Under the pieces are notes generated by a model. That model was given only the letters and a program-made list of their open reading frames with translations, was not told the DNA's origin and searched no databases. This document shows positions 3,446 through 33,006 of a stretch of DNA of 64,000 nt, piece after piece. The translations under genes and the position numbers were made by a program. The stretch comes from an uncultured Roseovarius sp. (lineage in GTDB: Bacteria; Pseudomonadota; Alphaproteobacteria; Rhodobacterales; Rhodobacteraceae), in assembly GCF_947259555.1 (NCBI RefSeq), contig NZ_CAMYMD010000084.1:62001-126000 (forward strand), read 5' to 3'. Position 1 is the stretch's first letter, and every line of letters starts with the position of its first letter.

Positions 3446-3457
3446 GCCTGAGCTTTG

Positions 3458-3492
3458 CGGCCCGTGATGTATGCGTCGCGGGCCGTCTTTTT
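3458..3492 (+). terminator. intra-operon attenuating hairpin between dctP and dctQ
   Basis: A perfect stem CGGCCCG / CGGGCCG with a 14-base loop is followed by TCTTTTT. It lies 13 bases after the dctP stop and ends before the dctQ ribosome-binding site. Its likely role is partial termination, giving more receptor than membrane subunits. Confidence 0.6.
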
Positions 3493-3514
3493 CGACCTGA
3501 GCGGGAGATGCACC

Positions 3515-4147: not shown

Positions 4148-4159
4148 GGATGTCACCTG

Positions 4160-5560
4160 ATGGAGCCAATTGATATCGGGCTGGTCGTGACCGGTATGAT
4201 GCTGGTCGTTGTGATCCTGGGCATGCGCGTGGCCTTTGCCGCCGCTCTTGCAGGCACGATCGGGCTGATCTGGATTTTCTGGTCCAAGAAGGGCTATGCG
4301 GGCGACGAATTTTTCTGGGCGCTGACCGTGGCGGTCAAAACTGCCGGTCAGGTGCCGCATTCCAAGGTCAGCTCGCAAGCGCTGAGCCTCATTCCGACCT
4401 TCATCATGATCGGCTATCTCGCCTATTACGCGGGGCTGACCAAGGCGCTCTTCGAGGCGGCGAAACGCTGGATTGCCTGGGTGCCGGGGGGGCTTGCCGT
4501 CTCCACCGTGTTTGCCACGGCAGGTTTTGCCGCCGTGTCGGGGGCGAGCGTGGCGACGGCGGCTGTGTTTGCGCGCATCGCCATCCCCGAGATGCTCAAG
4601 ATCGGCTATGACAAGCGGTTCGCTGCGGGCGTGGTGGCGGCTGGCGGCACATTGGCGAGCCTCATTCCGCCCTCAGCATTGCTGGTGATCTACGCGATTA
4701 TCGTGGAGCAGGACGTGGGCAAGCTGTTGCTTGCCGGTTTCATTCCCGGCGTGTTTTCGGCCTTTGTCTATGCGCTTTTGATCATCGGTCTGGCGCTGAC
4801 CATCAAAGGGTTTGGCCCGCCGGTGGGTGGCTTTACCTGGCGTGAGCGTTTCGTGTCGCTGCCGCCCGCGCTGCCCATCGTGTTCGTTGTCGTGACGATC
4901 ATCTTTTTCGTCTACAACCCATTCGGCGGCGATGCTTGGGGCACACCGACCGAGGGTGGCGCGATCGGCGCCTTTGTGGTGTTCCTGATGGCGCTTTATC
5001 GTGGCATGCGCTGGCCTGAACTGAAGGACGCACTGCTGGAGACGGCGAAGCTGTCGGTGATGATCTTTACCATCATCTGGGGGGTGCTGATCTATGTGCG
5101 GTTTCTCGGCTTTGCCGATCTGCCATCGGCCTTTGCGGATTGGATTACCTCGCTGACGCTGTCGCCGATGCTGATCCTGATCTGCATCCTGCTGGCCTAT
5201 GCGGTGCTGGGCATGTTCATGGACGCGATCGGCATGCTGCTGTTGACGCTGCCGGTGGTCTATCCGGCGGTGATGGCGCTCAATGGTGGGATCAATGTCA
5301 GCGCGGCGGAGAGTGCCTTTGGCATGAATGGCCAGATGTGCGCGATCTGGTTCGGGATACTGGTGGTCAAGATGGCCGAGTTCTGCCTGATCACGCCACC
5401 TATCGGCCTCAACTGTTTCGTGGTGGCGGGCGTGCGCCCTGACCTGAGCGTGCAGGACGTGTTCAAGGGGGTGATGCCGTTCTTTATCGCCGATGCCGTG
5501 ACCATCGCGCTGTTGGTGGGGTTCCCGGCGATCGTTCTATGGCTGCCGGGTCTGGCCTAG
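4160..5560 (+). CDS. dctM: TRAP transporter large membrane subunit DctM
   Basis: Large channel-forming subunit of the TRAP transporter, 466 residues and roughly a dozen membrane segments. It uses an ion gradient to import the DctP-bound ligand across the inner membrane. Family features include the GASVATAAVFARIAIPEM stretch, the hairpin-type SLIPPSALLVIYAIIVEQ and the closing LITPPIGLNCFVVAGV. It is the last gene of the dctPQM operon; I see no strong terminator before motB. Confidence 0.92.
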   Translation: MEPIDIGLVVTGMMLVVVILGMRVAFAAALAGTIGLIWIFWSKKGYAGDEFFWALTVAVKTAGQVPHSKVSSQALSLIPTFIMIGYLAYYAGLTKALFEAAKRWIAWVPGGLAVSTVFATAGFAAVSGASVATAAVFARIAIPEMLKIGYDKRFAAGVVAAGGTLASLIPPSALLVIYAIIVEQDVGKLLLAGFIPGVFSAFVYALLIIGLALTIKGFGPPVGGFTWRERFVSLPPALPIVFVVVTIIFFVYNPFGGDAWGTPTEGGAIGAFVVFLMALYRGMRWPELKDALLETAKLSVMIFTIIWGVLIYVRFLGFADLPSAFADWITSLTLSPMLILICILLAYAVLGMFMDAIGMLLLTLPVVYPAVMALNGGINVSAAESAFGMNGQMCAIWFGILVVKMAEFCLITPPIGLNCFVVAGVRPDLSVQDVFKGVMPFFIADAVTIALLVGFPAIVLWLPGLA

Positions 5561-5598: not shown

Positions 5599-5645
5599 GC
5601 CACCCTGTGCTACCCCTTGGATCGGGTGAGACAAAGGTGGTGAGT

Positions 5646-6494
5646 ATGGACGTGCGCAGCAACGCGGCGCCGGTCATCATCAAACGGAAAAAGATCATTG
5701 CAGGCGGCGGGCATCATGGCGGTGCCTGGAAAGTGGCCTATGCCGATTTCGTCACCGCGATGATGGCCTTTTTCCTGCTGATGTGGCTGGTGAACGCGAC
5801 AACCGAGCAGCAACGCAAGGGCATTGCGGATTACTTTAGCCCGACCGTTCCGATCAACCGTATCTCAGGCGGCGGCAACGGCGCCTTTGGCGGAGACAGT
5901 GTTTTTTCGGAAGATGTTCTCGCACAGAATGGTACCGGTGCATCACAGCGTATGTCTACAGAGAGCCGTCAGGCACGTGGTGACATGGGCTTGATGACCG
6001 ATGGCCGGTCCTCTGCAGAGACCACCGCCTTTACTGCGGTAGAAGAGATGCTCAAGGGTGTCAGCGGTGAAAGCATGGAGGCCGCAAAGAGGCTGCGTCA
6101 CGTTGTAACGCGCGTTACTGACGAGGGGCTGGTCATCGAGCTGTTTGATCTGCCCGGGGCGCTGCTCTTCGAGGAGGGGCGTGCCGTTGCGTCGCCCTTG
6201 TTGCAAGAGCTGACAATGATACTCGCCAGAGCCGCCCGCCTCGTGACGAATGACGTGGCACTTGCTGGGTATAGCCGTGCCCGTCCGATCACGCGAGTGG
6301 ATAATTCAGTGTGGGACTTGTCCTCTTCCCGCGCACACCAACTGCGCAAAATGCTTGAGACGGCGAGTGTTGATGGCAAGCGAATGCGTCGCGTCACAGG
6401 GCACGGGGACCGCTCTCCGAGCGTGCCTGACCCGATGGCCCTGCGCAACAACCGCCTTGAGATGATTTTGCTCAGGTCCGATCCAGAGCATTAG
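5646..6494 (+). CDS. motB: flagellar stator protein MotB
   Basis: Stator subunit that anchors to peptidoglycan and forms the proton channel with MotA. From the ATG at 5646 (preceded by AAGGTGGTGAG) it has 282 residues. The N-terminus shows the MotB plug-and-channel signature GGGHHGGAWKVAYADFVTAMMAFFLLMWL, with the channel aspartate in YADF. The C-terminal half is an OmpA/MotB-like domain (VWDLSSSRAHQLRKML, LRNNRLEMIL), but the usual GHTD motif reads GYSR, so the aspartate that contacts diaminopimelate is not evident. motA lies 18 kb downstream rather than adjacent. Confidence 0.9.
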   Translation: MDVRSNAAPVIIKRKKIIAGGGHHGGAWKVAYADFVTAMMAFFLLMWLVNATTEQQRKGIADYFSPTVPINRISGGGNGAFGGDSVFSEDVLAQNGTGASQRMSTESRQARGDMGLMTDGRSSAETTAFTAVEEMLKGVSGESMEAAKRLRHVVTRVTDEGLVIELFDLPGALLFEEGRAVASPLLQELTMILARAARLVTNDVALAGYSRARPITRVDNSVWDLSSSRAHQLRKMLETASVDGKRMRRVTGHGDRSPSVPDPMALRNNRLEMILLRSDPEH

Positions 6495-11537: not shown

Positions 11538-13760
11538 TCAGCCAGCCTCCTCCGTCAGGGCCTCTAGGCCAATACGAACCGCGCGATTTGGGTTTGTTGA
11601 AAGGATATGCGTCCCAAGCGCTTTCGCAAGTCTGTCATGCCCCTTGGCGACGGCGCGCTTGAAAAGCTCGCGTTGATACCGAGGCGAACCACGTCTTGCG
11701 CGCAGCAAGCCATAGTATTCCTCCGAGGTTAGCGTGCCGTTGAGCGCCCCCAGAATGATCGGGCTCAGAATGCCCATTTGGTTGAGCGAACTGCCCAGCC
11801 GATGGCCAAGAAGCGGCGCGCGAAGATGCTGCACGTTGTCATGCGTGAAACGCGCCGCATGGTTGGCGTCAAGCGGTTCATAGGGATCGTAGATGATGGA
11901 AACGCGATTGGCGGCCACACTTACTTTGGCGGCGTCACCGTATCTTCCTGTGAAGTCGCGATCCCAAACAACCTTGTAACGGGTCTCCCAAGGGACGACC
12001 GACTTGTCGACCGTGCTTTGTGGCGAGATGGCCACCACATCGCATCCGGGTGCCGCGGCCGAAAAGGCGCATGCCGCGTAGCCGCCCATCGAGGCCCCGT
12101 AGAAAACGACACGTCTGAACTGCTTGAAAAACCCCTCGTCCCGAAGCGCATCGAATTGCTCATGGACCCAAGGCTCCCGATACCAGGTCCATCCGCCGGC
12201 CAGAACGCCCAACATCGACCAGCCGTGATCCTTGATGAAGCTATAACCCCAGGGGCGGCGGTCCTCGCGTTTGGTCATGGCTATGTCGAGATTGTCGAAT
12301 GTCACCACGAGTGTGTCCGAGGCGCGCGGCATATAAAGAAAACTATGCCCGTTTGCGCCGGGTCGGTACCAGCCCTCCCGACCAGCCAATTGACGTGCGA
12401 TTTCGTGCCACCCGTCCTCCGTGCTGGTGGGTTCCGGCGGCTTGGGTTGCACCCTTATGCGGGTAATTTCGTGCCCGTCTTCCTCGCGCGACGACAACGC
12501 GGTGTTAACGCCGAATTTCTTGAGGAATGGGAAGGCGCCCGATCCCTTGCGGACATCCATGAAAACACGCGTGTCGGAATGCATGCAACGGTCGAGGAAT
12601 TTTCCAAGAAACGGCACATTGTAGCGGTCCCCGAACCCGGCAAGGTTGCATAGCACGTCAACTGGGCGCAGATCGTTCTCATCGCGAATGACCCGGATAC
12701 GGCCCGGGTCCACGTCGTGATCCATGAGAAACTCAGTGTAGCTTTGAAGCCAGCCCTGATCCCCCTCCTTGAACTTGCCGCGCCGATTGCAATTGACCAG
12801 CTGAATCTCACAATCGAACTTGTGATGCAGCGCCAGCATGAAACTACGCGCGCCCCCGGTCAGGTCCGCAGCGACGGAGACGCTTTCGAGATCCAACTCA
12901 TCGATCAACGCACCGTCAAAGGTTGCCTTCCCACGGCCCTTGATCGGCGCAAGCGCCGGGTTGATGTTGTGATCCTGAACAAGCTTCTCCAAATAGGAGT
13001 CTTTGGGTGGCAGGCCATCGTGGATATTACCGAGCTGGCGCTTGTTCGAGGCCCAAAGATGCAGGGCTGTGGTTTCCGGCGTGATCAGCCCTGTGGCGAG
13101 CTCTGCCCGGCGCATGAACTTGAACCGCTCGCGGAACGTGATGGGATAGAACGCGTTCAGCGGTTGCACATGGGCCTCAAGCCCGAGGGCGTGGACGTAA
13201 TGTGTGACCATCATTGGCCCCCAGACGCCCCATGGCTGTTGCGAGACATGCACCGGCTTGCCCTTGGCCGCCTGTTTGCGCATCTGCTCCTGTCTTTTCC
13301 GGGGTAGAAAGGGGGCAATCGCATAGCGGTCGGATGTGAATTCGAGCATTTGTTGCAGGATGTCGCTGTCAGCGGGCAAGCCAAGGACCGCATTGTTTAC
13401 ACGGTGCTCTCCGGGCAGCTCATAGCCCATAACGTAGTCGCTGTCATACTCCATTGGGCGGTGACAATAGACATCGGTGTCAACCCAGATCATGCCGGGG
13501 CATTGGTGAATCATGTGAAGCCGAAACCAATCGGCAAAGAGCGCGTAGCTGTTCTTTTGCTCGTATTTTATGAAGTCATCAGTATCGATGATTTCCCGCC
13601 CATCGCGAAAGATGACGCCCGCGGGCAGGTTCGGGATGGGTTCGTATCCAAAGAGCGTAATCTTCTGGCCACGGTCCACGAATGACTTCAGGCAGAGTTG
13701 CTCCATCCAGCTGAGAGGGCCGCCGATCCAAAGCGTGCCAACCTCGCGTTCCCGTGCCAC
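11538..13760 (-). CDS. glycosyltransferase (GT32-like) fused to an alpha/beta-hydrolase domain
   Basis: 740 residues from a GTG at 13760 with an AGGAG Shine-Dalgarno; the track's start at 13847 has no ribosome-binding site and adds 29 residues. Domain 1 (about 1-270) begins VGTLWIGGPLSWMEQLCLKSF and carries a DxD in MIWVDTDVYCHRP, like polymannosyl/capsular glycosyltransferases. The middle (about 280-440) is unrecognised. The C-terminal part (about 470-740) looks like an alpha/beta hydrolase with nucleophile elbow VVFYGASMGGYAACAFSA. The gene is convergent with flgI and starts the island inserted in the flagellar cluster. It may transfer a sugar and remove or add an acyl group. The fusion and its role are inferred. 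Confidence 0.65.
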   Translation of the reverse strand: MAREREVGTLWIGGPLSWMEQLCLKSFVDRGQKITLFGYEPIPNLPAGVIFRDGREIIDTDDFIKYEQKNSYALFADWFRLHMIHQCPGMIWVDTDVYCHRPMEYDSDYVMGYELPGEHRVNNAVLGLPADSDILQQMLEFTSDRYAIAPFLPRKRQEQMRKQAAKGKPVHVSQQPWGVWGPMMVTHYVHALGLEAHVQPLNAFYPITFRERFKFMRRAELATGLITPETTALHLWASNKRQLGNIHDGLPPKDSYLEKLVQDHNINPALAPIKGRGKATFDGALIDELDLESVSVAADLTGGARSFMLALHHKFDCEIQLVNCNRRGKFKEGDQGWLQSYTEFLMDHDVDPGRIRVIRDENDLRPVDVLCNLAGFGDRYNVPFLGKFLDRCMHSDTRVFMDVRKGSGAFPFLKKFGVNTALSSREEDGHEITRIRVQPKPPEPTSTEDGWHEIARQLAGREGWYRPGANGHSFLYMPRASDTLVVTFDNLDIAMTKREDRRPWGYSFIKDHGWSMLGVLAGGWTWYREPWVHEQFDALRDEGFFKQFRRVVFYGASMGGYAACAFSAAAPGCDVVAISPQSTVDKSVVPWETRYKVVWDRDFTGRYGDAAKVSVAANRVSIIYDPYEPLDANHAARFTHDNVQHLRAPLLGHRLGSSLNQMGILSPIILGALNGTLTSEEYYGLLRARRGSPRYQRELFKRAVAKGHDRLAKALGTHILSTNPNRAVRIGLEALTEEAG

Positions 13761-13979
13761 CTTTGCCTCTCCTAATTTGTACGCGCCCTTGGCGGGCAAC
13801 ATTGGGTTTGTTGCAGGGTAACTGCTCTGAATGCGTTTGTGTATCATCGTGGAGAGAGCGGCATGTAGATTTTACCTCAGGCGTGTCAGTCGCGCCATGC
13901 CGCTTGCCTCAGCAGGGAGGCACACGCTATTATTGTCGTAAAAAGAACCCGCCGCTTAGAGCAGATACATGAGGCAAAA

Positions 13980-14948
13980 ATGAGTAAAGAGACCTATACC
14001 GTCGTCTCGACCATGAAAAACGAGGCGCCTTATATTCTGGATTGGGTGGCTCATTACAAGACACTTGGATTTGACAACATTCTTGTCTGTACGAATGACT
14101 GCACAGACACGACCGTTGATATTCTGGTGCGGCTGCAGGAGCTGGGGTTTGTCACTCAGCACAACACGATCGTGCGAAAGGCCGGTATTCATCGCAGCGC
14201 GTTGCGCCAGGCAAGTCGGCGCTACGATGTCGTCATGGACGCCAAATGGGTGTTTGTCTGTGACGTCGATGAGTATTTGAACGTGCATATGGGCGATGGT
14301 TCAGTCCACGCTCTGGTCGAGGGCTCTGGCCCCGATGCAGACGTGATTTCAGTGCCTTGGCGCATATTTGGCCCGGCTGGTGTCGAGCATTTCGAGGACA
14401 TACCAGTGGCACAGCAGTTCGCAAAGGGTGAGTTGGAGTGGGACGAAACCGCGCGGCCCAACACCGGTAAATTCGTGAAATCTCTCTACACAAATCAGCA
14501 TAAGTTTCAGCGCATGGGGCTGCATGCGCCTGTCTCTCTTGATGAGCATGTGGCCGACACAAAGCGGGTGCTGCCGGGCGGGGCGGAGTATATCGTCAAT
14601 GGCACGCGCACGGACAACCCGCCGCTCTTTACCCATGCCCAGGTCAATCATTACGCGCTGCGTTCGATGGAAAGCTTTCTGATCAAGCGCGCGCGAGGGC
14701 GAGCGAACCATTCGCATCACGTTCTTGGTCAGGAATACTGGGAGAAGTTCAACCTCAACGACGAGACCGACAAAACCATTGAGCGATATCAGGACAAGAG
14801 CGCCGCGTTGCTTGCAGACCTCAAGAGCGACCCGCAATTGGCGGAGCTACACGCGCGAGGTGTTGAGTGGCACAAGCGCAAGGCGGCTTCGATCCGCATG
14901 GACCCGGAAATGGATGAGTTGGTTGCGGCGATATCCGCTGACCTGTAA
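13980..14948 (+). CDS. glycosyltransferase family 2-type protein (Glyco_tranf_2_4)
   Basis: 322 residues, no signal peptide or membrane helix, so cytoplasmic. It opens with the donor-binding strand YTVVSTMKNEAPYILDWVAHYKTLGFDNILVCTNDCTD and has the metal-binding motif in VFVCDVDEYLNV, both typical of this GT-A family. The C-terminal signature NHYALRSMESFLIKRARGRANH recurs in the two neighbouring glycosyltransferases. A GAGG Shine-Dalgarno lies before the ATG. It is transcribed divergently from the GT32-like gene across a 219-bp gap and convergently with the next one. The substrate is unknown; flagellar or surface glycan assembly is my inference from location. Confidence 0.75.
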   Translation: MSKETYTVVSTMKNEAPYILDWVAHYKTLGFDNILVCTNDCTDTTVDILVRLQELGFVTQHNTIVRKAGIHRSALRQASRRYDVVMDAKWVFVCDVDEYLNVHMGDGSVHALVEGSGPDADVISVPWRIFGPAGVEHFEDIPVAQQFAKGELEWDETARPNTGKFVKSLYTNQHKFQRMGLHAPVSLDEHVADTKRVLPGGAEYIVNGTRTDNPPLFTHAQVNHYALRSMESFLIKRARGRANHSHHVLGQEYWEKFNLNDETDKTIERYQDKSAALLADLKSDPQLAELHARGVEWHKRKAASIRMDPEMDELVAAISADL

Positions 14949-14972
14949 CCGACTGAGTACGGCTTGCCTGGA

Positions 14973-17219
14973 TCAATGCGCGGTTTCGCCCTGTAGCTCG
15001 ACAGAAAAGAACCAGTCGTCTTCCGGGTCGCGGGCGACAATCTCGTCCGGGATCACCCCGGGGCCGGACAGAAAGACGTTCGATCCGAAATGTGAATGCA
15101 GGCGCGACAGCTTTTGCATCCGTGGGCTGGTCAATTCCTCGTAAAACCGGCTGTAATTCGCGGTGGCCCGCAACGCTTCGATCTTGTCCTGATGACACGC
15201 GACCGCATGGTGATGCGCTGCGGTGATTTCGGGGTCGCTCATCAGGCGGTTAAGCTCTCTCTGCATCATCGGCAGGCGCGACAGGATGGTGTGATCCTCC
15301 TGATAATTGTTGTTCATGCGAAACCAATAGGCAAGCCCCTGATCGCGGTCGACATGGTTCACTCGCCCCCTATCGCGCTTGACCAGAAAGCTCTCGGCCG
15401 AGCGCACGGCGTAATGATTGAGTTGCACCAAATCATAGCCGTAGGTCTCGATCGTCGAGCGCCAGCCATTGCGGTACATGTCTCTTGGCAGCGGTTGTCC
15501 CGATCCATTGACCCAGTTGATGTCTTCCCAGAGTTGCGGGTTCAGACCCTTGGGGCGGTGCACGCCTAGTTTCTTGAACAGCCCGATATTCTGAAACAGC
15601 GTCTTGAAGCCCCATGCCTGATGCGGCTTGCGCGCGAATTCCGGGGCGCAGCGCAGGAATTGTTCGGTGATCGGGCGATCTGCATATTCATGCAGGTCAC
15701 TATTGCCGAACAACCGCCATGTCATGGCGATCATGTTGGCGTCTGGCACCGCCTCAAAGAGCGCGTCAAGCGTGCCATCGCCAGTCTTGATGTTGATGAA
15801 TTCATCGACGTCGATACAGGTAGACCATTTGGCCTTGAGGATCACCGGCTCTGCCTCGGCCGATTGAAGCGCGGCATGCTGTGGTTTGAGATCCATTTCG
15901 CGAAAGCGGTTCTCGCGGTGTTGCACCAGACCTTTTCGTTCCAGCATCTGGAGCATCGTGTCGGTGCCGTCGGTGCAGTCATTGGTGTAAACTAGGATAT
16001 CGTCAAAGCCTATGGCGCGATGATAGGCGAGCCATTCCAGGATAAACGGCCCCTCGTTCTTCATCGTGGTGACAATGGCGCACCGCCCCCGCCCCGTTGG
16101 TGCGGCATCCGGTTTAATTTCAGGCATGCGAACCGGCTTGTGCCCAAAATGCTCCTGTGATTGCCGCAGGAGCGGAGGATGTTCGATCAGCGAGGTCTTG
16201 GGTACGATCTTGGAAATTGATGCTGTCGGATGGCGAAGGGCCATGTGACGATAGAACCCCCTTGCCCGAGTTTCATCGGGCCGCGCATTCCCCACACGAA
16301 CAAGCCGCCATATCGCATCATCTGGTAGCTTTGCCGGAGCAAGACACCAGCGCTGCCGCCCGCCCTGAGCATCAAACTGAACGCAGATGTGATCTGCAAA
16401 ACGTATCGGATGTTTGTTGCGTACGCGCCACGGGTAACAATGCCGACCGAGTAGCGGGACAAGGCCGCCATCGGCCGCTACGGCGCTATCAAAAATCGTC
16501 TCATCTGTGGGCGCAATGAGATCGTGAACGTCGATATTGGCCACGGCGCGCGCTTGCGCCAGAAAACGCGCGCGTGTGATTTCGTAGTAACTCAGCGTAC
16601 CGAGTGGCGCGTCCCAAGGTGCAGGTGGTGGAATGTCCATCCGGTCCTTTCCAGGTGCTTCGGGCACGCAAAAAGGATGAGCCTCGGCCGGGCTGTCATG
16701 TCTTCCCAACGGCAGATCGCTCGACAGCAGGATGACATGGCATGACACCCCGTGATCCGCCATGCCTTTCCGCAACTCAGGGGCGAATCGTGTGTCCGTG
16801 CCGGGTTTCGCGCGGTCGAGGATGACCGCACCACTCATGCCATGCTCCCGGACATGATAGGTGAGCCAGGTCAGTACCGTTTCCGCATCTTCGCCATTGC
16901 GTACGGCCGCCAATACGTCGGCCCCTTCAAAAAGCTCCTGCTCCTCTTCTGCGGGTGTCACGTCGAGCATACCGAGAGGCGTGTCGAACTGTGCGCGACC
17001 TTCTGGCATCGAGAACGTCAGGATTGGAGCGCCGCCGACGCTCTTTTGCGCGATCAAGGCGGCGCCCTCTGGAGGGATGATCGAGCCCGCCTCAGTTTGC
17101 GATCCGAAAAAAAGCGTGATCATGCGCGCCCCGGCAGCGCGTAGCTCAACAGCGTCAAGCAAGATGATGTCACCCAGTTTCTGGCTCGCCATCCGGCGTT
17201 CTGTTACGTTATCGCTCAT
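14973..17219 (-). CDS. two-domain glycosyltransferase with degenerate N-terminal half
   Basis: 748 residues. The C-terminal half (about 375-748) is an intact GT-A domain: CAIVTTMKNEGPFILEWLAYHRAIGFDDILVYTNDCTDGT, metal motif CIDVDEFINI, and NHYAVRSAESFLVKRDRGRVNH. The N-terminal half (about 100-370) looks like a decayed copy: VLAAVRNGEDAETVLTWLTYHVREHGMSGAVILDRA aligns with the donor strand, and NIDVHDLIAPTDETIFD with the metal motif, where DVDE has become DVHD. It may therefore be a catalytic domain joined to a regulatory or acceptor-binding pseudo-domain. Its ATG overlaps the stop of the upstream glycosyltransferase (ATGA), so both form one unit. Confidence 0.7.
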   Translation of the reverse strand: MSDNVTERRMASQKLGDIILLDAVELRAAGARMITLFFGSQTEAGSIIPPEGAALIAQKSVGGAPILTFSMPEGRAQFDTPLGMLDVTPAEEEQELFEGADVLAAVRNGEDAETVLTWLTYHVREHGMSGAVILDRAKPGTDTRFAPELRKGMADHGVSCHVILLSSDLPLGRHDSPAEAHPFCVPEAPGKDRMDIPPPAPWDAPLGTLSYYEITRARFLAQARAVANIDVHDLIAPTDETIFDSAVAADGGLVPLLGRHCYPWRVRNKHPIRFADHICVQFDAQGGRQRWCLAPAKLPDDAIWRLVRVGNARPDETRARGFYRHMALRHPTASISKIVPKTSLIEHPPLLRQSQEHFGHKPVRMPEIKPDAAPTGRGRCAIVTTMKNEGPFILEWLAYHRAIGFDDILVYTNDCTDGTDTMLQMLERKGLVQHRENRFREMDLKPQHAALQSAEAEPVILKAKWSTCIDVDEFINIKTGDGTLDALFEAVPDANMIAMTWRLFGNSDLHEYADRPITEQFLRCAPEFARKPHQAWGFKTLFQNIGLFKKLGVHRPKGLNPQLWEDINWVNGSGQPLPRDMYRNGWRSTIETYGYDLVQLNHYAVRSAESFLVKRDRGRVNHVDRDQGLAYWFRMNNNYQEDHTILSRLPMMQRELNRLMSDPEITAAHHHAVACHQDKIEALRATANYSRFYEELTSPRMQKLSRLHSHFGSNVFLSGPGVIPDEIVARDPEDDWFFSVELQGETAH

Positions 17220-18262
17220 GGTGCTGCCCCACCTCGTGCCAATCGCATCTGGGCGGCGATGAAGGCTCGGCCATCTTCCGCGCTTGGCGGTGTGCTGCCC
17301 GTCAGAAAGCCGAGCCGAAACGCGAGCCTTAGCGCTTCGACATCCTCCGATAGTGCTTGATACCGCGAGTCGTGCGCCTTGAGGCAGGCCCTGTGGGCGG
17401 TCTCGACATTGGGAAGGCTCATCAAACGCACGACCTCGGCATGCGTCGCCTCCAGCATGGGGAGAATTTCGCCGGCCTCTTCATTGTTCCAGTTGCGCTC
17501 TGCCCAGTAGGACAAACCGATTTCGCGATCCATGTGATTGGGCAAGCCCCGCGCGCGTTTGACCATGAATTCCTCGACCGAGCGAAGGGAATAATGATTA
17601 AGCCATAGGCGGGGCGAACCAGCGGTCGCCCCGTAGAGCGTTATGGCGGCGTCATTGCGTGAGAACCCGTCATTCTGGCGCGCCCCGTCCGGGCCGAGCC
17701 AGCGCGCTGGCTTTCGCGGACGGGCGCGCGGGCGATGCACACCGGGCTGGCGGAATGCAGCTGGGCGGTGCAGGGTCTTGAACAGATGCGCGAGCGGGAA
17801 ATGCAGATCAAATGGCGCGGCTCGGGTGAAACGTTCTGGTGTCAGGCCTGCAGTTCGCCTTTTCTGCCCCCCTGAGCCATAAAGACGCCACGGCAATGCC
17901 AAGGCATCGAATGCACCGGACGTTTTCTCGAAATTCAAGAGCGTTTGCCGAAGCGTATCGTGTGGCGCGCAGATAAACTCGTCGCAATCGAAGAACAGCG
18001 CCCACTCCGCAGTCGTGTAGATGTCTGTATCGCGCAGATGACGCAACGCTTGCCATTGCACCGATTTACCGCCCTTCGGAACGAAAGGCAGATGCACGAT
18101 GCGATCATCCTGAGCGAGCGCGTCGAGGAGCGCGTCACTGCCATCTGTGCAATCATGGCTCAATACCAGCATTCGGTCGAACCCGGCCGCCAGATGGTGC
18201 GCAATCCATTCCACGACATAGGGACCGTCATCGCGCAAGCATGTGATACCCAAAAAGCCCAA
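17216..18262 (-). CDS. glycosyltransferase family 2-type protein (Glyco_tranf_2_4)
   Basis: About 348 residues if the TTG near 18262 is used; it has CAGAGG six bases upstream and puts the protein start right before the family opening GFLGITCLRDDGPYVVEWIAHHLAAGFDRMLVLSHDCTDG. The track's TTG at 18322 has no clear ribosome-binding site. The metal motif is ALFFDCDEFICAP. The C-terminal signature NHYSLRSVEEFMVKRARGLPNH matches the two paralogues in the island. It is translationally coupled to the two-domain enzyme downstream and diverges from the methyltransferase. Function by family only; acceptor and donor unknown. Confidence 0.72.
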   Translation of the reverse strand: MGFLGITCLRDDGPYVVEWIAHHLAAGFDRMLVLSHDCTDGSDALLDALAQDDRIVHLPFVPKGGKSVQWQALRHLRDTDIYTTAEWALFFDCDEFICAPHDTLRQTLLNFEKTSGAFDALALPWRLYGSGGQKRRTAGLTPERFTRAAPFDLHFPLAHLFKTLHRPAAFRQPGVHRPRARPRKPARWLGPDGARQNDGFSRNDAAITLYGATAGSPRLWLNHYSLRSVEEFMVKRARGLPNHMDREIGLSYWAERNWNNEEAGEILPMLEATHAEVVRLMSLPNVETAHRACLKAHDSRYQALSEDVEALRLAFRLGFLTGSTPPSAEDGRAFIAAQMRLARGGAAP

Positions 18263-18391
18263 CGCTATCCTCTGCTCCCTCGCCCAACATCTTTTTTGCT
18301 TGATTATAAGCCGCAACGTCAAACAAAGTCACTCTCGGTACCCGACATATGCAAAAATTCTCGCGTTGCGACCATAAACAGGACCGAGCAG

Positions 18392-22505: not shown

Positions 22506-22551
22506 TTTCTGTCTGCCTATATGAGCGTTGTCTGCAACAAGAGGGCTGAAC

Positions 22552-23058
22552 ATGGCGGAACCGGACAAACCCGAGAACAAACCCGCGAAGACCTCTTTGA
22601 AAAAGCCGCTGCTCGTAGGGCTCGTGCTCGCAGTATTGGGCGGTGGCGGTGGCTATTTTGTTGTTGGATCCGGTATCCTTGCACTTGGTGCCGACATCGC
22701 AGACTCAGGCGAAGATGGGGCGGAAATGGAGCATGCAATACCGGTTGCCGAAATGCCCGACGTCGCGTTCGTGCCAATCTCTCCGCTGGTCGTCTCGGTC
22801 GGTCAGGGCGCCGAGCGTCTACATTTGCGCTTCAGGGCAGAGCTTGAGGTGAAGAGTGCGTTCAAATCAGATGTCGAGGACCTTCAGCCACGGATCGTCG
22901 ATGTCATGAATACCTATCTTCGAGCGCTTAAACTGTCGGATCTCGAAGAGACAAGCGCCCTTGTACGGCTGCGCGCGCAACTCTTGCGGCGCATTCAGGT
23001 GGTGACTGGTGGAGGCCGTATCAATGACCTTCTCATTATGGAATTTGTGCTGAACTGA
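22552..23058 (+). CDS. fliL: flagellar basal body-associated protein FliL
   Basis: 168 residues from the ATG at 22552 (GAGGG upstream); the track's TTG at 22528 is less likely. One N-terminal membrane helix (PLLVGLVLAVLGGGGGYFVVG) is followed by a periplasmic FliL domain (FVPISPLVVSVGQGAERLHLRFRAELEV, ending GGRINDLLIMEFVLN). FliL surrounds and stabilises stators, which fits its operon with the motE-like gene and motA. A second, more divergent FliL-like gene sits at 32521-33006. Confidence 0.9.
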   Translation: MAEPDKPENKPAKTSLKKPLLVGLVLAVLGGGGGYFVVGSGILALGADIADSGEDGAEMEHAIPVAEMPDVAFVPISPLVVSVGQGAERLHLRFRAELEVKSAFKSDVEDLQPRIVDVMNTYLRALKLSDLEETSALVRLRAQLLRRIQVVTGGGRINDLLIMEFVLN

Positions 23059-23069
23059 GGATTGGAGCT

Positions 23070-23480
23070 ATGGAAATGATCGCGGATGTTCTGCTTGTCG
23101 CCGGAGCGGTAGGCGCTGGTTTTTATTGCTACATTCTCGCACGCCGCCTGACACGCTTCAACGATCTCGAAAGCGGTATGGGAGGAGCGGTGGCAGTTCT
23201 CTCGGCGCAGGTAGACGATCTGACCAAGACATTGCATGATGCACGTCACACGGCGGATGAGTCGACACGATCGCTGGAGGCTTTGACGGTGCGGGCCGAA
23301 GATGTCGCTCGGCGATTGGAGCTCTTGGTCGCCTCGATGCACGACCTTTCCGATCCACCGCCAAAGACCGAACCGAAAAGGACTGAGCCGCCAGAGGACA
23401 GATCTGCCGTGGGATCAGCCCAGGCCTCCGGCCCCGTGTTCAAGCGGCATCCGGGCATGGCGAGAGAGGTGTCGACATGA
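23070..23480 (+). CDS. small single-pass membrane protein, flagellar cluster
   Basis: 136 residues; conserved function unknown to me. An N-terminal membrane helix (MIADVLLVAGAVGAGFYCYILA) is followed by a cytoplasmic stretch likely to form a coiled coil (about 30-92, DLESGMGGAVAVLSAQVDDLTKTLHDAR onward) and a Pro-rich, charged tail. The layout resembles PflI/DUF6468 proteins encoded beside fliL in Caulobacter-type clusters, which is a suggestion only. A GGAG Shine-Dalgarno precedes the ATG, and the stop overlaps the motE-like gene by four bases. Confidence 0.6.
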   Translation: MEMIADVLLVAGAVGAGFYCYILARRLTRFNDLESGMGGAVAVLSAQVDDLTKTLHDARHTADESTRSLEALTVRAEDVARRLELLVASMHDLSDPPPKTEPKRTEPPEDRSAVGSAQASGPVFKRHPGMAREVST

Positions 23481-24079
23481 CCCAGCCCGTCAGACGTGGA
23501 AGGCGCGGTCACCCACGTGCGCGCGGTGTTCTTTTCATACTGTCGACATTTCTCATATCTTCAGCACTGGTCCGTGTCGGAGGAGGGGCGGGCCAGGCCC
23601 TGGCACTGGTCTCTTCGGAGGCGGAACCTCCTGTCGAGCAAGCGGTGACAAACGAGAAATGCGAAACGCCTGACGACCTTCAACTTGTGCTCGACTCCCT
23701 TCAGGCGCGTGAAGCCAGGCTTGACGATCGGGAAGCGGCAATGGGAGACCGCCTGCATGCACTCGATATTGCGGAGCAGGAAATAGACCGCAAGATGAGG
23801 GCCTTGATGCAAGCAGAGGATAACCTCCGGCGCATGGTTGCCGTTGCCGAAACGGCGGCTGAAAACGACGTGGCACAGCTTATCAAGGTTTATGAGGCAA
23901 TGAAGCCGAAGCAGGCCTCGGCCGTGTTCGAAGAGATGGATCCCGTGTTCGCTGCCGGATTTCTAGGCCGTATGCGTGCAGATGCGGCCGCCGAGATCAT
24001 GGCGGGCATGTCGCCTGCGGCTGCGCATGGGATCAGCGTCATTCTGGCCGGCCGGAATGCGAATGTTCCAAGGCAATGA
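23477..24079 (+). CDS. motE: MotE-like flagellar protein (MgtE N-terminal-like domain)
   Basis: 200 residues. It has an N-terminal membrane or signal segment (VLFILSTFLISSALVRVGGGAG), a coiled coil (about 75-125, VLDSLQAREARLDDREAAMGDRLHALDIAEQEIDRKM) and a C-terminal helical domain of the MgtE-N kind (LIKVYEAMKPKQASAVFEEMDPVFAAGFLGRMRADAAAEIMAGM). In Sinorhizobium, MotE is a periplasmic chaperone for MotC. No recognisable motC is present; the large protein encoded after motA is a possible counterpart. Coupled to the preceding gene by ATGA. Confidence 0.7.
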   Translation: MTQPVRRGRRGHPRARGVLFILSTFLISSALVRVGGGAGQALALVSSEAEPPVEQAVTNEKCETPDDLQLVLDSLQAREARLDDREAAMGDRLHALDIAEQEIDRKMRALMQAEDNLRRMVAVAETAAENDVAQLIKVYEAMKPKQASAVFEEMDPVFAAGFLGRMRADAAAEIMAGMSPAAAHGISVILAGRNANVPRQ

Positions 24080-24149: not shown

Positions 24150-25019
24150 ATGTTCGGAATCATCGGCATTGTCGTTATCTTCATCATGGTCTTTGGCGGC
24201 TACGTGGCCGCCGGGGGCAAGCTTGGGATCATTCTCAAGGCGTTGCCATTCGAGCTCATGATGATCGGAGGAGCGGCTGTAGGAGCATTTTTGATAAGCA
24301 ACGATGGCTCCGCGATTAAACACACGCTCAAAGATGTCGGCAAGGTATTCAAGGGCCCGAAATGGAAACCGCAAGACTACCAGGATCTGCTTTGCCTCTT
24401 ATTCGAATTGATCCGTTTGGGGCGACAGAATCCGATTGCGATCGAAGAGCATATCGAGGCACCTGAGGACTCTGCCATTTTCTCGAAGTATCCGAAAGTA
24501 GTGGCCGATACGGAAGCGATTGCCCTGATTGGGGATACCCTGCGATCCGCCTCCATGAATTATGATGATCCACATCAAGTCGAGGAAGTTCTGGAAAAGC
24601 GAATGGAGGCCAGCCTGCATCACGCGCTCCATTCCAGCCATGCATTGCAAACCATGGCCGATGCCCTGCCTGCGCTCGGCATCGTTGCCGCGGTGCTCGG
24701 TGTTATCAAGACCATGGCGTCCATTGATCAACCGCCGGAAATCCTTGGAAAGATGATCGGCGGTGCGCTGGTCGGCACATTTCTCGGCGTGTTCCTGTCA
24801 TATGGCTTGGTTGGGCCTTTTGCGGCAAAGGTCAAAGACGTGGTTGAGGAAGATGGGCACTTTTACCAACTCATTCGCGAGGTTCTGGTCGCCAATCTTC
24901 ACAACCATGCCACAAACATCTGTATCGAAGTTGGGCGCCAGAACACACCGCATCACAAGCGCCCAAGCTTCATTGCTCTCGAAGACGCATTGAAATCACT
25001 GAAACAGGATGCAGCGTGA
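24150..25019 (+). CDS. motA: flagellar stator protein MotA
   Basis: 289 residues. Ion-conducting stator subunit with four expected membrane helices: GIIGIVVIFIMVFGGYVAAGG at the N-terminus and, after the cytoplasmic loop, ALPALGIVAAVLGVIKTM and MIGGALVGTFLGVFLSYGLVGPFA. The cytoplasmic loop (about 60-175) carries the charged residues that contact the rotor. A GAGG Shine-Dalgarno precedes the ATG. MotB, its partner, is 18 kb upstream at the start of the cluster. The stop overlaps the next gene. Confidence 0.93.
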   Translation: MFGIIGIVVIFIMVFGGYVAAGGKLGIILKALPFELMMIGGAAVGAFLISNDGSAIKHTLKDVGKVFKGPKWKPQDYQDLLCLLFELIRLGRQNPIAIEEHIEAPEDSAIFSKYPKVVADTEAIALIGDTLRSASMNYDDPHQVEEVLEKRMEASLHHALHSSHALQTMADALPALGIVAAVLGVIKTMASIDQPPEILGKMIGGALVGTFLGVFLSYGLVGPFAAKVKDVVEEDGHFYQLIREVLVANLHNHATNICIEVGRQNTPHHKRPSFIALEDALKSLKQDAA

Positions 25020-27259
25020 TGCGGCGTATCGTCTTCGTTGCCGTTCTAATGCTACCGGCCTCGTTTGCTTGCGCCCAATCCATCCGGGTGCGTTCCGGGG
25101 AGCACGAGGGGTTTTCACGTCTCGTTCTCGACATGCCGGCACGTCTGGAATGGTCAAGCGAGCGGCGTGAAGGTGGCGTATCGGTGGTTCTTAAGACTGA
25201 TCGGCCTGAGTTTGATATACGCGGAGTTCATGATCGTTTGACCGAAGGGCGTCTCAAGGAGATCATCGCCCCGGAGGGCCAGAAGCGTCTCGATTTGACG
25301 TTCGCGTGTGATTGTGACGTGAACTTTTTCTGGCACGACAAATCCATGTTGGTCATCGATATTGAGGACAACCCGGTTGGTGCCACGCGCCCGTCCGAGC
25401 GAGAGCTGGTGACCGACGAGGAAAATACCGTGCCGCTAGAGTTCTCTGATGCTTTGCGCCCGATCTCTCGTGCCGTTGAAATGACAACGAAAGCGATCAT
25501 TTCTGGTGCCCAAGAGGGCCTAGCCCGAACTGACTCTGGCAGTGGCTCTCTCCCAGACATGGAAAAGAACCTGATGGCGGAAATGGACCACGCTGCGCGA
25601 CTTGGATTGCTTGAACCATCGATTGTGAAGCAGGCAGAGCGTCGGACGAGATCTGTGCCAGCTCTGAATACGAACGCCGCAGGTCCGAAAATCCAAGGCA
25701 CGTCCTCGCATCATCCATTGCAGAACATGAGGGTTGCACCCGCGGGCGGTCTAGAGCATCTGGTCAGATCCCGAAATCCGGGTGATAGTCGCCATCGCAT
25801 CTTATCGGAGTGTCTTTCCGAGCACCTTGTCGATGTTCCGGCTTGGGGCGCGGATGCGCCTTTTCATGTACAGGTAGGGGCGTTGAATCGGGGCCTCACC
25901 CGCGAATTTGACATGGCGGATCCGGAGGCTATCCTCGCGTTGGCGCGGCTATACGTATTTTTTGGGTTTGGCGCGGAGGCCGCGCAAGTCGTCGCGCTCG
26001 CAGAGCCTTTTACCATCGAGTTGCAGATTGTCGGGGAAATGGCCGCCCTCGTCGATTCTTTTGAGTCAACGCGCGAACATTTGCTTCGGAATGATCTCGG
26101 CTGTGACGGTCCAAGTGTGGTTTGGGCTGCAATTGCTCACCCCACCATCCCGGCAGATCAGCCACTTGATCACCCGGCCATATTGCGATCCTTCGGGGCC
26201 TTGCCCGGGCACTTGCGCCGTCACCTTGGCCCGGAGCTGGCTCGGAAGTTTCTGGAGGCCGGTCATCGGGATACGGCGCATTCGATATTGAGGACCATCC
26301 GATATGCCGAGCCATCCGAGGCACCGGCCAAGGAATTGGCAACGGCGGAACTGGCCTTTGCCAATGGCAAGGATAAACTGGGTGAGGCTGCTCTTGGAGC
26401 CGCGATAGAACATAGCCTAGAGCCATCTGCAAAGGCTGTACTGGCATTGATCGAACGCCGGCTTGGCGAAAATCGACAGGTCCCGTATGACAGTGCGCAA
26501 CTGGCCGGTGCCTACTTCCAGGAACATCGCGGAGAACCCTTCGGGCGCGCGCTTGGCAATGCCTATGTACGGGCGTTGGCGGCGGCGGGGGCATTCGAAG
26601 ACGCATTTTCCGAACTTCGGCGCATCGCTCCCGACCTGATGCAAGCGACGGAAGCCGAGACACGGAATGATCTAGTCAGGCTGTTGGTCGAGCAGGCGGG
26701 AGATATCGACTTTTTGCGTTATGCGGCAGGAGCCCCCTCCGAGCATCTGCGAGTGCTACCTCATGAAACGGCGCTCAGTATCGCAGAACGGCTTTTGAAC
26801 GTTGGACTTGTCTTGGAGGCATCTCAAGTCATGGATCAGGTGAACGCAGGCGTGCAAAGTGAACGGCATAGCCTGATCCTTGCGGAAATCGAATTGAAGT
26901 TGGGGCACCCGCACGCGGCTGAAGCGGAGTTGCTGGGCCTTGTTAGCCCTGAGAGCGCCCGCGCAAAAGCGCGTGCTCGCAGTATGTTGGGGGATTATGC
27001 GGCTGCTGCGGAGTATCTATCCGACTTGGGCGATTCGGCTGAGGCGCAGCAAGCGGCCTGGAGGGCGGAAGATTGGTCCAAACTGGCGCAATCCGATGAC
27101 GAAGTCATCCGGAAACTGGCGGCCTTGGTCGTTGAGGAGGAAACGCCGGATGGCGAGGACCTTCTGGCGCGCAATCTACGCCTTTTGGACCAAAGTGCGA
27201 GTTTGCGAGACGCTCTGGTCGAGCTCCTTGAGAGCCCGTCCTTCGCCACAAGCCCCTGA
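25019..27259 (+). CDS. large exported helical-repeat protein coupled to motA
   Basis: 746 residues from the ATG at 25019, which overlaps the motA stop (TGATG); the track uses a GTG one codon earlier. A signal peptide (RRIVFVAVLMLPASFACA) is followed by a beta-rich domain (about 24-115, IRVRSGEHEGFSRLVLDMPARLEW) resembling AMIN peptidoglycan- or envelope-targeting domains. Then come a Ser/Thr-rich linker (about 120-250) and a long all-helical region (about 270-740) that looks like TPR/SEL-type repeats. I recognise no named family. Tight coupling to motA suggests a periplasmic stator- or motor-associated scaffold, perhaps taking the place of MotC. Confidence 0.7.
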   Translation: MRRIVFVAVLMLPASFACAQSIRVRSGEHEGFSRLVLDMPARLEWSSERREGGVSVVLKTDRPEFDIRGVHDRLTEGRLKEIIAPEGQKRLDLTFACDCDVNFFWHDKSMLVIDIEDNPVGATRPSERELVTDEENTVPLEFSDALRPISRAVEMTTKAIISGAQEGLARTDSGSGSLPDMEKNLMAEMDHAARLGLLEPSIVKQAERRTRSVPALNTNAAGPKIQGTSSHHPLQNMRVAPAGGLEHLVRSRNPGDSRHRILSECLSEHLVDVPAWGADAPFHVQVGALNRGLTREFDMADPEAILALARLYVFFGFGAEAAQVVALAEPFTIELQIVGEMAALVDSFESTREHLLRNDLGCDGPSVVWAAIAHPTIPADQPLDHPAILRSFGALPGHLRRHLGPELARKFLEAGHRDTAHSILRTIRYAEPSEAPAKELATAELAFANGKDKLGEAALGAAIEHSLEPSAKAVLALIERRLGENRQVPYDSAQLAGAYFQEHRGEPFGRALGNAYVRALAAAGAFEDAFSELRRIAPDLMQATEAETRNDLVRLLVEQAGDIDFLRYAAGAPSEHLRVLPHETALSIAERLLNVGLVLEASQVMDQVNAGVQSERHSLILAEIELKLGHPHAAEAELLGLVSPESARAKARARSMLGDYAAAAEYLSDLGDSAEAQQAAWRAEDWSKLAQSDDEVIRKLAALVVEEETPDGEDLLARNLRLLDQSASLRDALVELLESPSFATSP

Positions 27260-27349
27260 GCTTGGCGCATCCTTACCAAATCTCAACACCCGGATTCTAT
27301 GCTGGATGCACGAGTGAAAGAACGTCGTTCTTCGAGGAGATTCCTTGGT

Positions 27350-28120
27350 ATGTTACATAGTAAATCGTGGCCCGGTAACTTGCGGGTGGCTTGCTCTATA
27401 CCCATCAGCAGCGTGGTCCGTCGCCTGGCCGGTTTTTCTGTCATGTGTCTAATGGCGGGCACCGCGGGCGTTCTGTCAGCTTCAGACAGAGCCGTGGTGT
27501 TGAATACCTGCGATGTCGCGGCATATCGCGCATCTATTGCAACAGGAGTCCCTTTGTCCGTGCTCAGGTCGGTGACGCGTGCGGAAACCGGGCGCGGGGT
27601 TCTCGGGGACCTTACGCCATGGCCCTGGACGGTCAACATGGAGGGGGCAGGACATTGGTTCGACAGCAGAGACGCAGCGCTGTCCTATGTCTACGCAGAG
27701 TTTGGACGCGGCGCGCGAAGTTTTGACATCGGATGCTTTCAGATCAACTACCGATGGCATGGCGAAGCCTTTCGGTCCATTGATCACATGCTTGATCCAG
27801 TCTCGAATGCGACATATGCGGCGAAATTCTTGTCGGATTTGCACGAAGAGACCGGAAACTGGTCAATTGCAGCAGGTACTTATCATTCCCGAACTGCTGA
27901 ATATGCCAACGCATACAGAGATCGCTTCGACCGTATTCATGCGCGCCTCGCTGAAACGACAACTCGGCTTCAAAGGGGGGCAAAACAGGCAAAGTCCCAT
28001 TCGCTTTTGGAAGATTCGACCGTCTCCGTTCGATCGCGTGCGCTCGGGTCCTCAGTGCCTAAGGGCGGTGTTGCGGGCTCCGTATTTGGCGATAAGCGCA
28101 GTGCTTTCATAGGTCTCTGA
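27350..28120 (+). CDS. flagellar lytic transglycosylase (SLT domain)
   Basis: 256 residues from the ATG at 27350 (GAGGAG upstream); the track's 27299 has no ribosome-binding site. An N-terminal export segment (LAGFSVMCLMAGTAGVLSAS) precedes an SLT-type lysozyme-like domain: the catalytic glutamate is in SVTRAETGRG and the family motif in DIGCFQINYRWHG. In Rhodobacter sphaeroides FlgJ lacks a muramidase domain and a separate enzyme, SltF, opens the wall for the rod; this gene, placed between the stator genes and flhA, is a good candidate for that role. Confidence 0.8.
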   Translation: MLHSKSWPGNLRVACSIPISSVVRRLAGFSVMCLMAGTAGVLSASDRAVVLNTCDVAAYRASIATGVPLSVLRSVTRAETGRGVLGDLTPWPWTVNMEGAGHWFDSRDAALSYVYAEFGRGARSFDIGCFQINYRWHGEAFRSIDHMLDPVSNATYAAKFLSDLHEETGNWSIAAGTYHSRTAEYANAYRDRFDRIHARLAETTTRLQRGAKQAKSHSLLEDSTVSVRSRALGSSVPKGGVAGSVFGDKRSAFIGL

Positions 28121-30977: not shown

Positions 30978-32066
30978 ATGGACGGGCAGGAAGACGATAC
31001 TGAGAAAACCCATGAGCCGACCCAGCACAAACTGGACGAGGCGCGCAAAAAGGGTGAGGTCGCGCGCTCTGCTGATTTGAACACGGCAGGATCCTATGGC
31101 GGGCTTTTGCTGGCGCTTTTGCTCTTAGGTGGTACAAGCGTTCAGACTGTCAGCGGGAGCCTGATGGTTTTGCTCGACCAGCCGCACCAACTTGCCAATC
31201 TAATTTTTAAAGATGGGCGCGCGTCCTCTGCCCTTGGTGGTCTGCTAGGGCAAGGAATGGGCGGGCTCTCGGTCTTGTTTATCGTACCGGCGCTGGCCGC
31301 GTTGCTCACGGTGTTTGCGCAGCGTAGTTTCGTCGTCGCACCTAGTAAGCTCGAGCCAAAGCTGTCTCGGGTTGACCCTGTTGAAAATGCCAAGAACAAG
31401 TTTGGACCATCCGGTCTTTTCGAGTTTGCCAAGAGCTTTTCCAAGCTGGTTCTTTATTGTGCGTTATTAGGCAGTTTTCTGTCCCATCGCCTTTCGGAAA
31501 TGGCCGGTGCCGTGCACGCGGCACCGGCGATGATAGGCGCTATGATCGGGCAAATAATCATCGAGTTTCTATTGATCACCTTTCTGATCACCTTGGCCGT
31601 GGGTGTGATTGATTATCTCTGGCAGTATTTCGATCACCTGCGTCGGCAGCGGATGTCACATAAGGAAGTGCGCGACGAGATGAAGCAGAATGATGGTGAT
31701 CCCGCCGTCAAACAGCAACGCCGTCGGCGAGGCATGGAAATCGCATCGCAGCAAATGATGGCGGATGTGCCGGGGGCGGATGTGGTGATCGTCAATCCGA
31801 CGCATTTCGCGGTCGCGTTGAAGTGGAGCCGTGCCCCGGGCTCTGCTCCGGTCTGTGTGGCCAAGGGTGTTGACCACATTGCCCTGGCAATTCGCAAGCT
31901 TGCACAGGAACACGGCGTTCCCGTTCAACTTGATCCACCGGTTGCAAGGGCCCTGCATGCCACCACAAATCTGGGTGAGGAAATCGACCCGGACCAATAT
32001 GCGGCGGTTGCTGTGGCCATCCGATTTGCCGATGAAATGAGGCGCAAGACCAGGAGTTTCGGATGA
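30978..32066 (+). CDS. flhB: flagellar export switch protein FlhB
   Basis: 362 residues from the ATG at 30978; the track's longer ORF runs back through fliR. It begins MDGQEDDTEKTHEPTQHKLDEARKKGEVARS, the family N-terminus, followed by four membrane helices. The cytoplasmic domain has the autocleavage site in VVIVNPTHFAVALKW (NPTH), so the switch that changes export from hook to filament substrates should work. The stop overlaps the FliJ-like gene by four bases. Confidence 0.95.
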   Translation: MDGQEDDTEKTHEPTQHKLDEARKKGEVARSADLNTAGSYGGLLLALLLLGGTSVQTVSGSLMVLLDQPHQLANLIFKDGRASSALGGLLGQGMGGLSVLFIVPALAALLTVFAQRSFVVAPSKLEPKLSRVDPVENAKNKFGPSGLFEFAKSFSKLVLYCALLGSFLSHRLSEMAGAVHAAPAMIGAMIGQIIIEFLLITFLITLAVGVIDYLWQYFDHLRRQRMSHKEVRDEMKQNDGDPAVKQQRRRRGMEIASQQMMADVPGADVVIVNPTHFAVALKWSRAPGSAPVCVAKGVDHIALAIRKLAQEHGVPVQLDPPVARALHATTNLGEEIDPDQYAAVAVAIRFADEMRRKTRSFG

Positions 32067-32500
32067 AACGCGATGCCTATGCCGGAATTGTGGGCTTGAC
32101 CGACGCGCTCTATCAAGCGCAGGCGGCACAGCTGCAGGCTCTTTTCGCCGAAGAACAAAGGTTGCGTGCAGAGATCAGTCAACTCGAGTCCGTCCGCTGT
32201 GCCGCCCGTGACGCGCCAAACGAAAGTTTGCTGGGCTATCGTGAAGTCGGAGCTGATCTGATGTGGCAGGGCTTTATCGGCCGGAGAAAGTCAGAATTGC
32301 ATTCTGAACTGGCTAGACTCTTGGGCCGCAAAGGACAGATGACTGTCCGTATGCGCCATGCATTCGGCAAGCATCAGGCGGCTTGCCAACTCTCACAGAC
32401 CGAGACAAATGGCCGGATCGCCCGCCGCATTGCAAAGCGTGCCGGCCTTGTTGATGAGTTTGCGCTGCTGGTGGCGCGGGGCGATCGCGACATCGAGTAG
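32063..32500 (+). CDS. FliJ-like coiled-coil protein after flhB
   Basis: 145 residues, soluble, rich in Arg, Glu and Leu, predicted as a long alpha-helical hairpin (about 12-55 and 70-125). Size, composition and membership of the export operon fit FliJ, the stalk of the export ATPase, which is short and poorly conserved. fliI itself is 5 kb downstream on the same strand. It is coupled to flhB by ATGA. The assignment is structural and positional; I cannot see a diagnostic motif. Confidence 0.5.
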   Translation: MKRDAYAGIVGLTDALYQAQAAQLQALFAEEQRLRAEISQLESVRCAARDAPNESLLGYREVGADLMWQGFIGRRKSELHSELARLLGRKGQMTVRMRHAFGKHQAACQLSQTETNGRIARRIAKRAGLVDEFALLVARGDRDIE

Positions 32501-32520: not shown

Positions 32521-33006
32521 TCACACGTCCTGCCGGGCGATCTCGGTGATGAGTACCCCTTGCACCGCCTCGCCAAGAATGTTCCGTGCCACGTCAAGCA
32601 ACGAGGCGCGCAGCATATCCATGTTGCGCGCATTCGTGAATGCGCCGTCGAAACCACCTATGTTCGCGTGATCGAAAAGCGCCTGGAGCAAGGCATCGCG
32701 AAGCTTTGGCTCACGCTCATAGACAGCCGAGGCGCTGCCTGGTCCGGTTTCAACACTGAGCGACAGGACCACCATTGCGCCGATCATGTCGCGGTCAACG
32801 ACCGGGACGACGAACTGATTATTGAGTTTGACAATTTCTGTCGGATTCGTATCGGGCGGTGTGTGACCGTGGGACAGGACCTGATCGGTTGTTTCGGTTG
32901 GGGCGTCGTCACCGATATCGGATTCGGATCTTAACATATGTCCCGCACCCGCCCCCGCCACGATCCCGATTAACAGTAGAAAGACTGGCAGTAGCTTTGA
33001 GATCAT
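32521..33006 (-). CDS. second FliL-like protein
   Basis: 161 residues. An N-terminal membrane helix (LLPVFLLLIGIVAGAGAGHML) and an exported FliL-like domain (IVKLNNQFVVPVVDRDMIGAMVVLSLSVETGP, ending GVLITEIARQDV). It differs clearly from FliL at 22552 and lacks its Gly-rich stretch. It is the last gene of the flgB-flgH operon. Two FliL-type proteins in one cluster may act at different stages or on different stators. Confidence 0.75.
   Translation of the reverse strand: MISKLLPVFLLLIGIVAGAGAGHMLRSESDIGDDAPTETTDQVLSHGHTPPDTNPTEIVKLNNQFVVPVVDRDMIGAMVVLSLSVETGPGSASAVYEREPKLRDALLQALFDHANIGGFDGAFTNARNMDMLRASLLDVARNILGEAVQGVLITEIARQDV

Follow-up and report, generated by a model that had tools for sequence, protein, structure and literature searches.

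The gene that directly follows motA in this Roseovarius locus raises the question of whether its exported product is a part of the flagellar motor and, if so, which one. It lies in a stretch of 64,000 nucleotides from an uncultured Roseovarius sp., referred to here as the window, as a reading frame at 25019..27259 on the forward strand with 746 open codons from the ATG at 25019 and 747 from an alternative GTG start at 25016. The preceding motA (24150..25019, +) encodes a TIGR03818 protein (MotA1 equivalog), shares 92% identity with the closest motA of a named record (Roseovarius metagenome-assembled genomes), and ends with a TGA at 25017-25019 in the junction gcGTGATGcgg. Its stop codon overlaps the ATG of the following gene by one base and the GTG by four. 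The initial annotation, which described an exported protein of 746 residues whose start overlaps motA, agrees with this open frame. Among relatives the overlap with motA is four bases in 83 of 92 cases and one base in 8, and the GTG at 25016 would give the window gene the four-base overlap that is usual in the family.

Upstream of motA, also on the forward strand, are fliL (22528..23058), a pflI-like gene encoding a DUF6468 protein (23070..23480; identified from its position and from homology across loci) and motE (23477..24079), whose product is of the E-ring family, contains an MgtE_N domain scoring above the Pfam cut-off, and has a single cysteine at residue 62. The gene under study is followed by a transglycosylase SLT-domain gene (27299-28120), flhA (starting at 28124), fliR and flhB. 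The SLT gene, possibly a flagellar lytic transglycosylase, is present in many relatives and undetected in others; since many loci showed no such gene beside motK, we rejected it as an essential part of the module. The presumed stator partner is encoded by motB (5607..6494, +; MotB_plug and OmpA domains), which is located apart from this group and is followed by flgE, rather than motC, and then by flgK, flgL and flgI.

Several further genes of the window were observed in passing. A second FliL-family gene (32521-33006, −) adjoins flgH on the strand opposite to the first fliL, and a 145-residue protein of no known family is encoded at 32063-32500, directly 3' of flhB and overlapping its stop codon. 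Inside the flagellar cluster, the stretch at 11538-18322 between flgI and fliP encodes three Glyco_tranf_2_4 proteins (322, 748 and 368 residues) and a 769-residue protein without any Pfam match; these genes possibly serve the synthesis of a surface glycan or flagellin glycosylation. Directly 5' of motB, at 2426-5560, we recognized by eye a TRAP transporter-like set of substrate-binding, small membrane and large membrane subunits.

The order fliL-pflI-motE-motA followed by the gene under study is identical to that published for the Fla2 flagellum of Cereibacter sphaeroides, where the operon fliL2-pflI-motE-motA2-motK has gene ends that overlap or lie close together (PMC10954123). Its last gene encodes MotK (RSWS8N_12065, UniProt Q3IY86), characterized in 2024 as a periplasmic protein of 652 residues and 68.5 kDa with a 24-residue signal, an AMIN-like domain at residues 23-119 and a helical region at residues 260-535 (PMC10954123). 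MotK is required for rotation and not for filaments: in motK mutants, hook and filament levels are normal and paralysis is the only defect. The protein binds MotE and MotB2, MotE is unstable without it, and its localization is polar and depends on MotA2 and MotB2 (PMC10954123). MotK homologues in Roseobacteraceae were noted in the same work, among them Dshi_3259 of Dinoroseobacter shibae, a proposed homologue with an AMIN-like N-terminus (PMC10954123); the window protein comes from the same Roseobacter group. A literature search on Silicibacter FlaB, FlaC and FlaD as candidate names for it returned nothing of use.

For a direct comparison we used the MotK of a locus, L117, that had been picked through gas-vesicle genes in the same family and then through motK in those genomes. 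Its MotK has exactly 652 residues and 68.6 kDa, and its MotE has exactly the published 185 residues and 19.2 kDa, with a cysteine at residue 49, which is, as published, position 20 of the mature protein once a 29-residue signal is removed. Since these lengths, masses and the cysteine position agree, with a difference of 0.1 kDa, we identified L117 as Cereibacter. An alignment of the window protein with this MotK spans 686 columns with 29% identity (E 5e-44), and this full-length homology identifies the window gene as motK. The two proteins also share the gene order, a start codon overlapping the motA stop, a signal sequence (in the window protein recognized from sequence only), an AMIN-like N-terminus, a disordered linker and a helical C-terminal part. 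The window protein is about 95 residues longer (746 versus 652), and its helical region extends to residue 738, whereas C. sphaeroides MotK beyond residue 540 or so is rich in proline and disordered.

We therefore regard the window gene, with high confidence, as motK of a Roseovarius-like member of the Rhodobacteraceae, encoding an exported protein that probably scaffolds the stators between the MotE ring and MotB. The protein belongs to a family that is already published and is not a new kind of part. This revises the initial annotation in two respects, as the protein is no longer uncharacterized, its C. sphaeroides orthologue having been described in 2024, and the suggestion of a new periplasmic motor disc component is supported with regard to a periplasmic motor protein and not with regard to novelty (PMC10954123).

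Structure prediction, one of the checks proposed along with the initial annotation, yielded an AlphaFold2 model from a 67-sequence alignment with a mean pLDDT of 84.7, in which 512 of the 746 residues reach at least 90. The model comprises a β-sandwich (residues 21-117), two stretches of very low confidence (125-175 and 202-262) and a helical part spanning 268-738, in accordance with the AMIN-like domain, disordered linker and TPR-like solenoid initially described. In the window these regions map, on the forward strand, to 25079..25369 for the AMIN-like domain (residues 21-117, with a near-invariant C97-x-C99 and the family signature VRSGEHxxFTRLV), 25391..25804 for the linker (residues 125-262, interrupted by a single predicted helix at 178-194) and 25811..27232 for the solenoid (residues 265-738, with invariant C265 and C362). 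Inspection by eye shows a hydrophobic N-terminus that closes with ACA/Q, resembling a signal-peptidase site.

Modelled alone, the N-terminal domain reaches a pLDDT of 91.4. A Foldseek search of the PDB gave AmiC (4bin, TMq 0.59) as its best match and also returned PilQ (4aqz, TMq 0.60), the two AMIN proteins reported as matches for MotK (PMC10954123). In Pfam (AMIN entries PF11741 and PF24837), the window protein scored 17.4 bits for AMIN-like against a curated cut-off of 27, and 26 of 50 relatives matched below E 0.05; with scores below the curated cut-off, the AMIN assignment rests on the fold. No curated Pfam or NCBIfam model covers the window protein. Weak Pfam matches to TipAS and WYL_3 and a match to ribosomal S13 were dismissed as chance-level, and a coatomer epsilon match of the MotK profile as a generic TPR signal.

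Among 350,542 PDB chains, the best match of the full-length model is 9hmf_K, a chain of the periplasmic scaffold of the Campylobacter jejuni motor (E 2.6e-7 over 823 columns). From its length of 773 residues and the accompanying paper, this chain is most likely PflA, which consists of an N-terminal β-sandwich, an unstructured linker and 16 TPRs, and forms the proximal-disc spokes that position the stators (PMC12222027). The window protein has the same succession of β-sandwich, linker and TPR superhelix, and PflA is connected to FlgY, an E-ring protein homologous to MotE (PMC13023049). However, 9hmf_K and the window protein superpose with a global TM-score of just 0.20, and numerous unrelated TPR proteins come next with E values near 1e-4, roughly two orders of magnitude weaker; the match is thus a good lead and not a proof. 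PflA was not among the matches when PDB sequences were searched with the profile, but its alpha-carbon trace may lack a usable sequence in that library. Papers of 2025-26 place MotK with MotC, PflA and FlcB, and these proteins have been proposed, together with CC_2058, as distant structural homologues (PMC11870540, PMC13023049).

A MotK homologue is found in 83 of 121 genomes of the same family, so that the reading frame is not a chance one; the genome of the window itself has one copy. A close motA is present in 89 of the 121, and the two genes co-occur: 82 genomes have both, 31 neither, one only motK and seven only motA (Fisher p 6e-21, uncorrected for relatedness). In three of these seven, the only motA is divergent, at about 52% identity. 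In 80 named loci fetched by motA, motK lies directly downstream of it wherever the contig reaches, and the order fliL-pflI-motE-motA-motK is kept in nearly all. A plasmid collection contained a single MotK homologue, on a Paroceanicella plasmid.

MotK evolves fast, as its identity among relatives is 23-40% despite 79-92% for MotA. Invariant residues in the 67-sequence alignment nevertheless include G27, H29, R34, C265 and C362, the two cysteines being conserved in all 67 relatives. The pair C97/C99 is complete in 62 of these; the remaining five lack both of its members, and all five retain C265 and C362. Because C97 and C99 are lost as a pair, we predict one disulphide between them and a separate one between C265 and C362. 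Stability of MotE is reported to require a cysteine in both C. sphaeroides and Sinorhizobium meliloti. In the window this residue is C62; across 77 Rhodobacterales MotE sequences, from the window and 76 relatives, 43 have a cysteine in that column, while 34 have no cysteine after residue 25. Given this occurrence in only 43 of 77, details of the MotE–MotK complex vary.

The initial annotation had also proposed a MotC counterpart. An orthologue of MotC, the partner chaperoned by MotE in S. meliloti, would be in keeping with the motE gene upstream of window motK, and MotC and MotK are both exported, TPR-rich partners of MotE in rotation (PMC13023049). Yet a profile of the 67 MotK relatives matched annotated Phyllobacterium MotC with an hhalign probability of only 1.2%, and the MotC gene lies downstream of motB (Phyllobacterium, L141), whereas motK lies downstream of motA. 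Furthermore, MotC has no AMIN domain (PMC13023049), and in C. sphaeroides it is MotE stability that depends on MotK, not the reverse (PMC10954123). We rejected MotC orthology, which we consider very improbable, on the profile comparison and gene position; a very remote common ancestry at the level of fold may exist. In agreement with the initial observation of a motE-like gene and no motC, the Phyllobacterium MotC query had no match at E<=1 in the genome of the window. The same query matched one genome of 337 in the class and was therefore functional. The proposed counterpart holds with regard to place in the motor and partner, and not to orthology: MotK is a functional stand-in for MotC, each being a periplasmic TPR-rich partner of MotE required for rotation, with no detectable sequence kinship.

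The AMIN fold and the SLT gene adjoining motK at 27299-28120 could alternatively point to what is mainly an envelope or assembly factor, one that helps the rod or rings to pass the wall and whose effect on rotation is only indirect. This is improbable given that C. sphaeroides motK mutants make hook and filaments in normal amounts, that MotK there binds MotB2 and requires MotA2/MotB2 for its localization, that in 91 of 92 relatives the start of motK overlaps motA, and that the SLT gene is undetected beside motK in many loci. A gene without any motor role, carried along by the operon, would be compatible with low sequence conservation and with the lack of a curated Pfam or NCBIfam model. We give this reading next to no weight in view of the strict co-occurrence with the motor, the conserved gene order, the invariant residues and an orthologue that is essential for rotation. 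All three alternatives are weaker than that of MotK as a stator scaffold.

As such a scaffold, the window MotK would be exported to the periplasm, where the AMIN-like domain would probably anchor it to the cell wall, presumably by binding peptidoglycan, or to a partner protein. The TPR-like solenoid probably binds the MotE ring on the side of the MS-ring and rotor as well as the periplasmic part of MotB. By bridging the two, MotK may recruit stator units to the motor or hold them open there, and without it the flagellum should be assembled but paralysed. By analogy, the properties described in C. sphaeroides, namely periplasmic location, paralysis on loss, binding of MotE and MotB2, and stator-dependent polar localization, would hold in this strain too, and MotK would be placed like a spoke between the MotE ring and the stators. 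The present analysis itself contributes the homology, the shared gene order, the domain architecture, a fold resembling that of the C. jejuni scaffold chain, and the joint occurrence with motA.

MotK-like proteins also occur outside the family. The MotK profile gave some match in 148 of 337 genomes of the class, the weaker matches being counted as they stand, and we fetched 20 loci from other families, chosen from among the strongest matches. In 18 of these, motE is nearby. The proteins mostly have about 1000-1350 residues, with one or, in many of them, two AMIN-like units at the N-terminus ahead of the same solenoid region. The cysteines C97/C99 and C265/C362 were discarded as a class-wide trait, being lost in these longer relatives, except for C265/C362 in L134. 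A published BLAST search found no similarity between MotK and Caulobacteraceae proteins (PMC10954123). In Caulobacter crescentus, CC_2058 is a large periplasmic protein with an AMIN-like N-terminus, encoded beside motE (CC_2059) (PMC10954123), and its mutant is reported as Mot-minus.

Fifteen of these loci from other alphaproteobacterial families (L121-L131, L133, L135, L137 and L140) have a tandem pair of MotB_plug genes upstream of the MotK-like gene, often with a four-base overlap and without an adjacent motA. The channel aspartate is absent in the first protein of the pair and present in the second in 15 of 15 cases. At other places, each of these genomes encodes a MotA with a good score and another MotB. 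L127 and L137 also have a CheZ gene ahead of the pair. A short search of open papers found no description of such a pair. We tentatively propose, at somewhat less than even confidence, that a stator scaffold is shared across Alphaproteobacteria and that MotK is its Rhodobacterales version, with spokes and MotE ring working elsewhere with a MotB-like hetero-pair, and Rhodobacterales keeping only a single canonical MotA/MotB. The fresh lead is this class-wide neighbourhood and not the window gene.

Since no curated Pfam or NCBIfam model covers the window MotK, proteins of this family are probably still annotated as hypothetical, and a MotK model could be built from the 67-sequence profile. The present assignment moves a hypothetical protein of most flagellated Rhodobacteraceae sampled into a characterized family, and a role in holding the stators can now be tested for it. 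Besides drawing attention to the paired MotB-like proteins, the class-wide relatives add sequence evidence to the structural evidence behind the published proposal that scaffolds of the MotE/MotK type are of ancient origin in Alphaproteobacteria.
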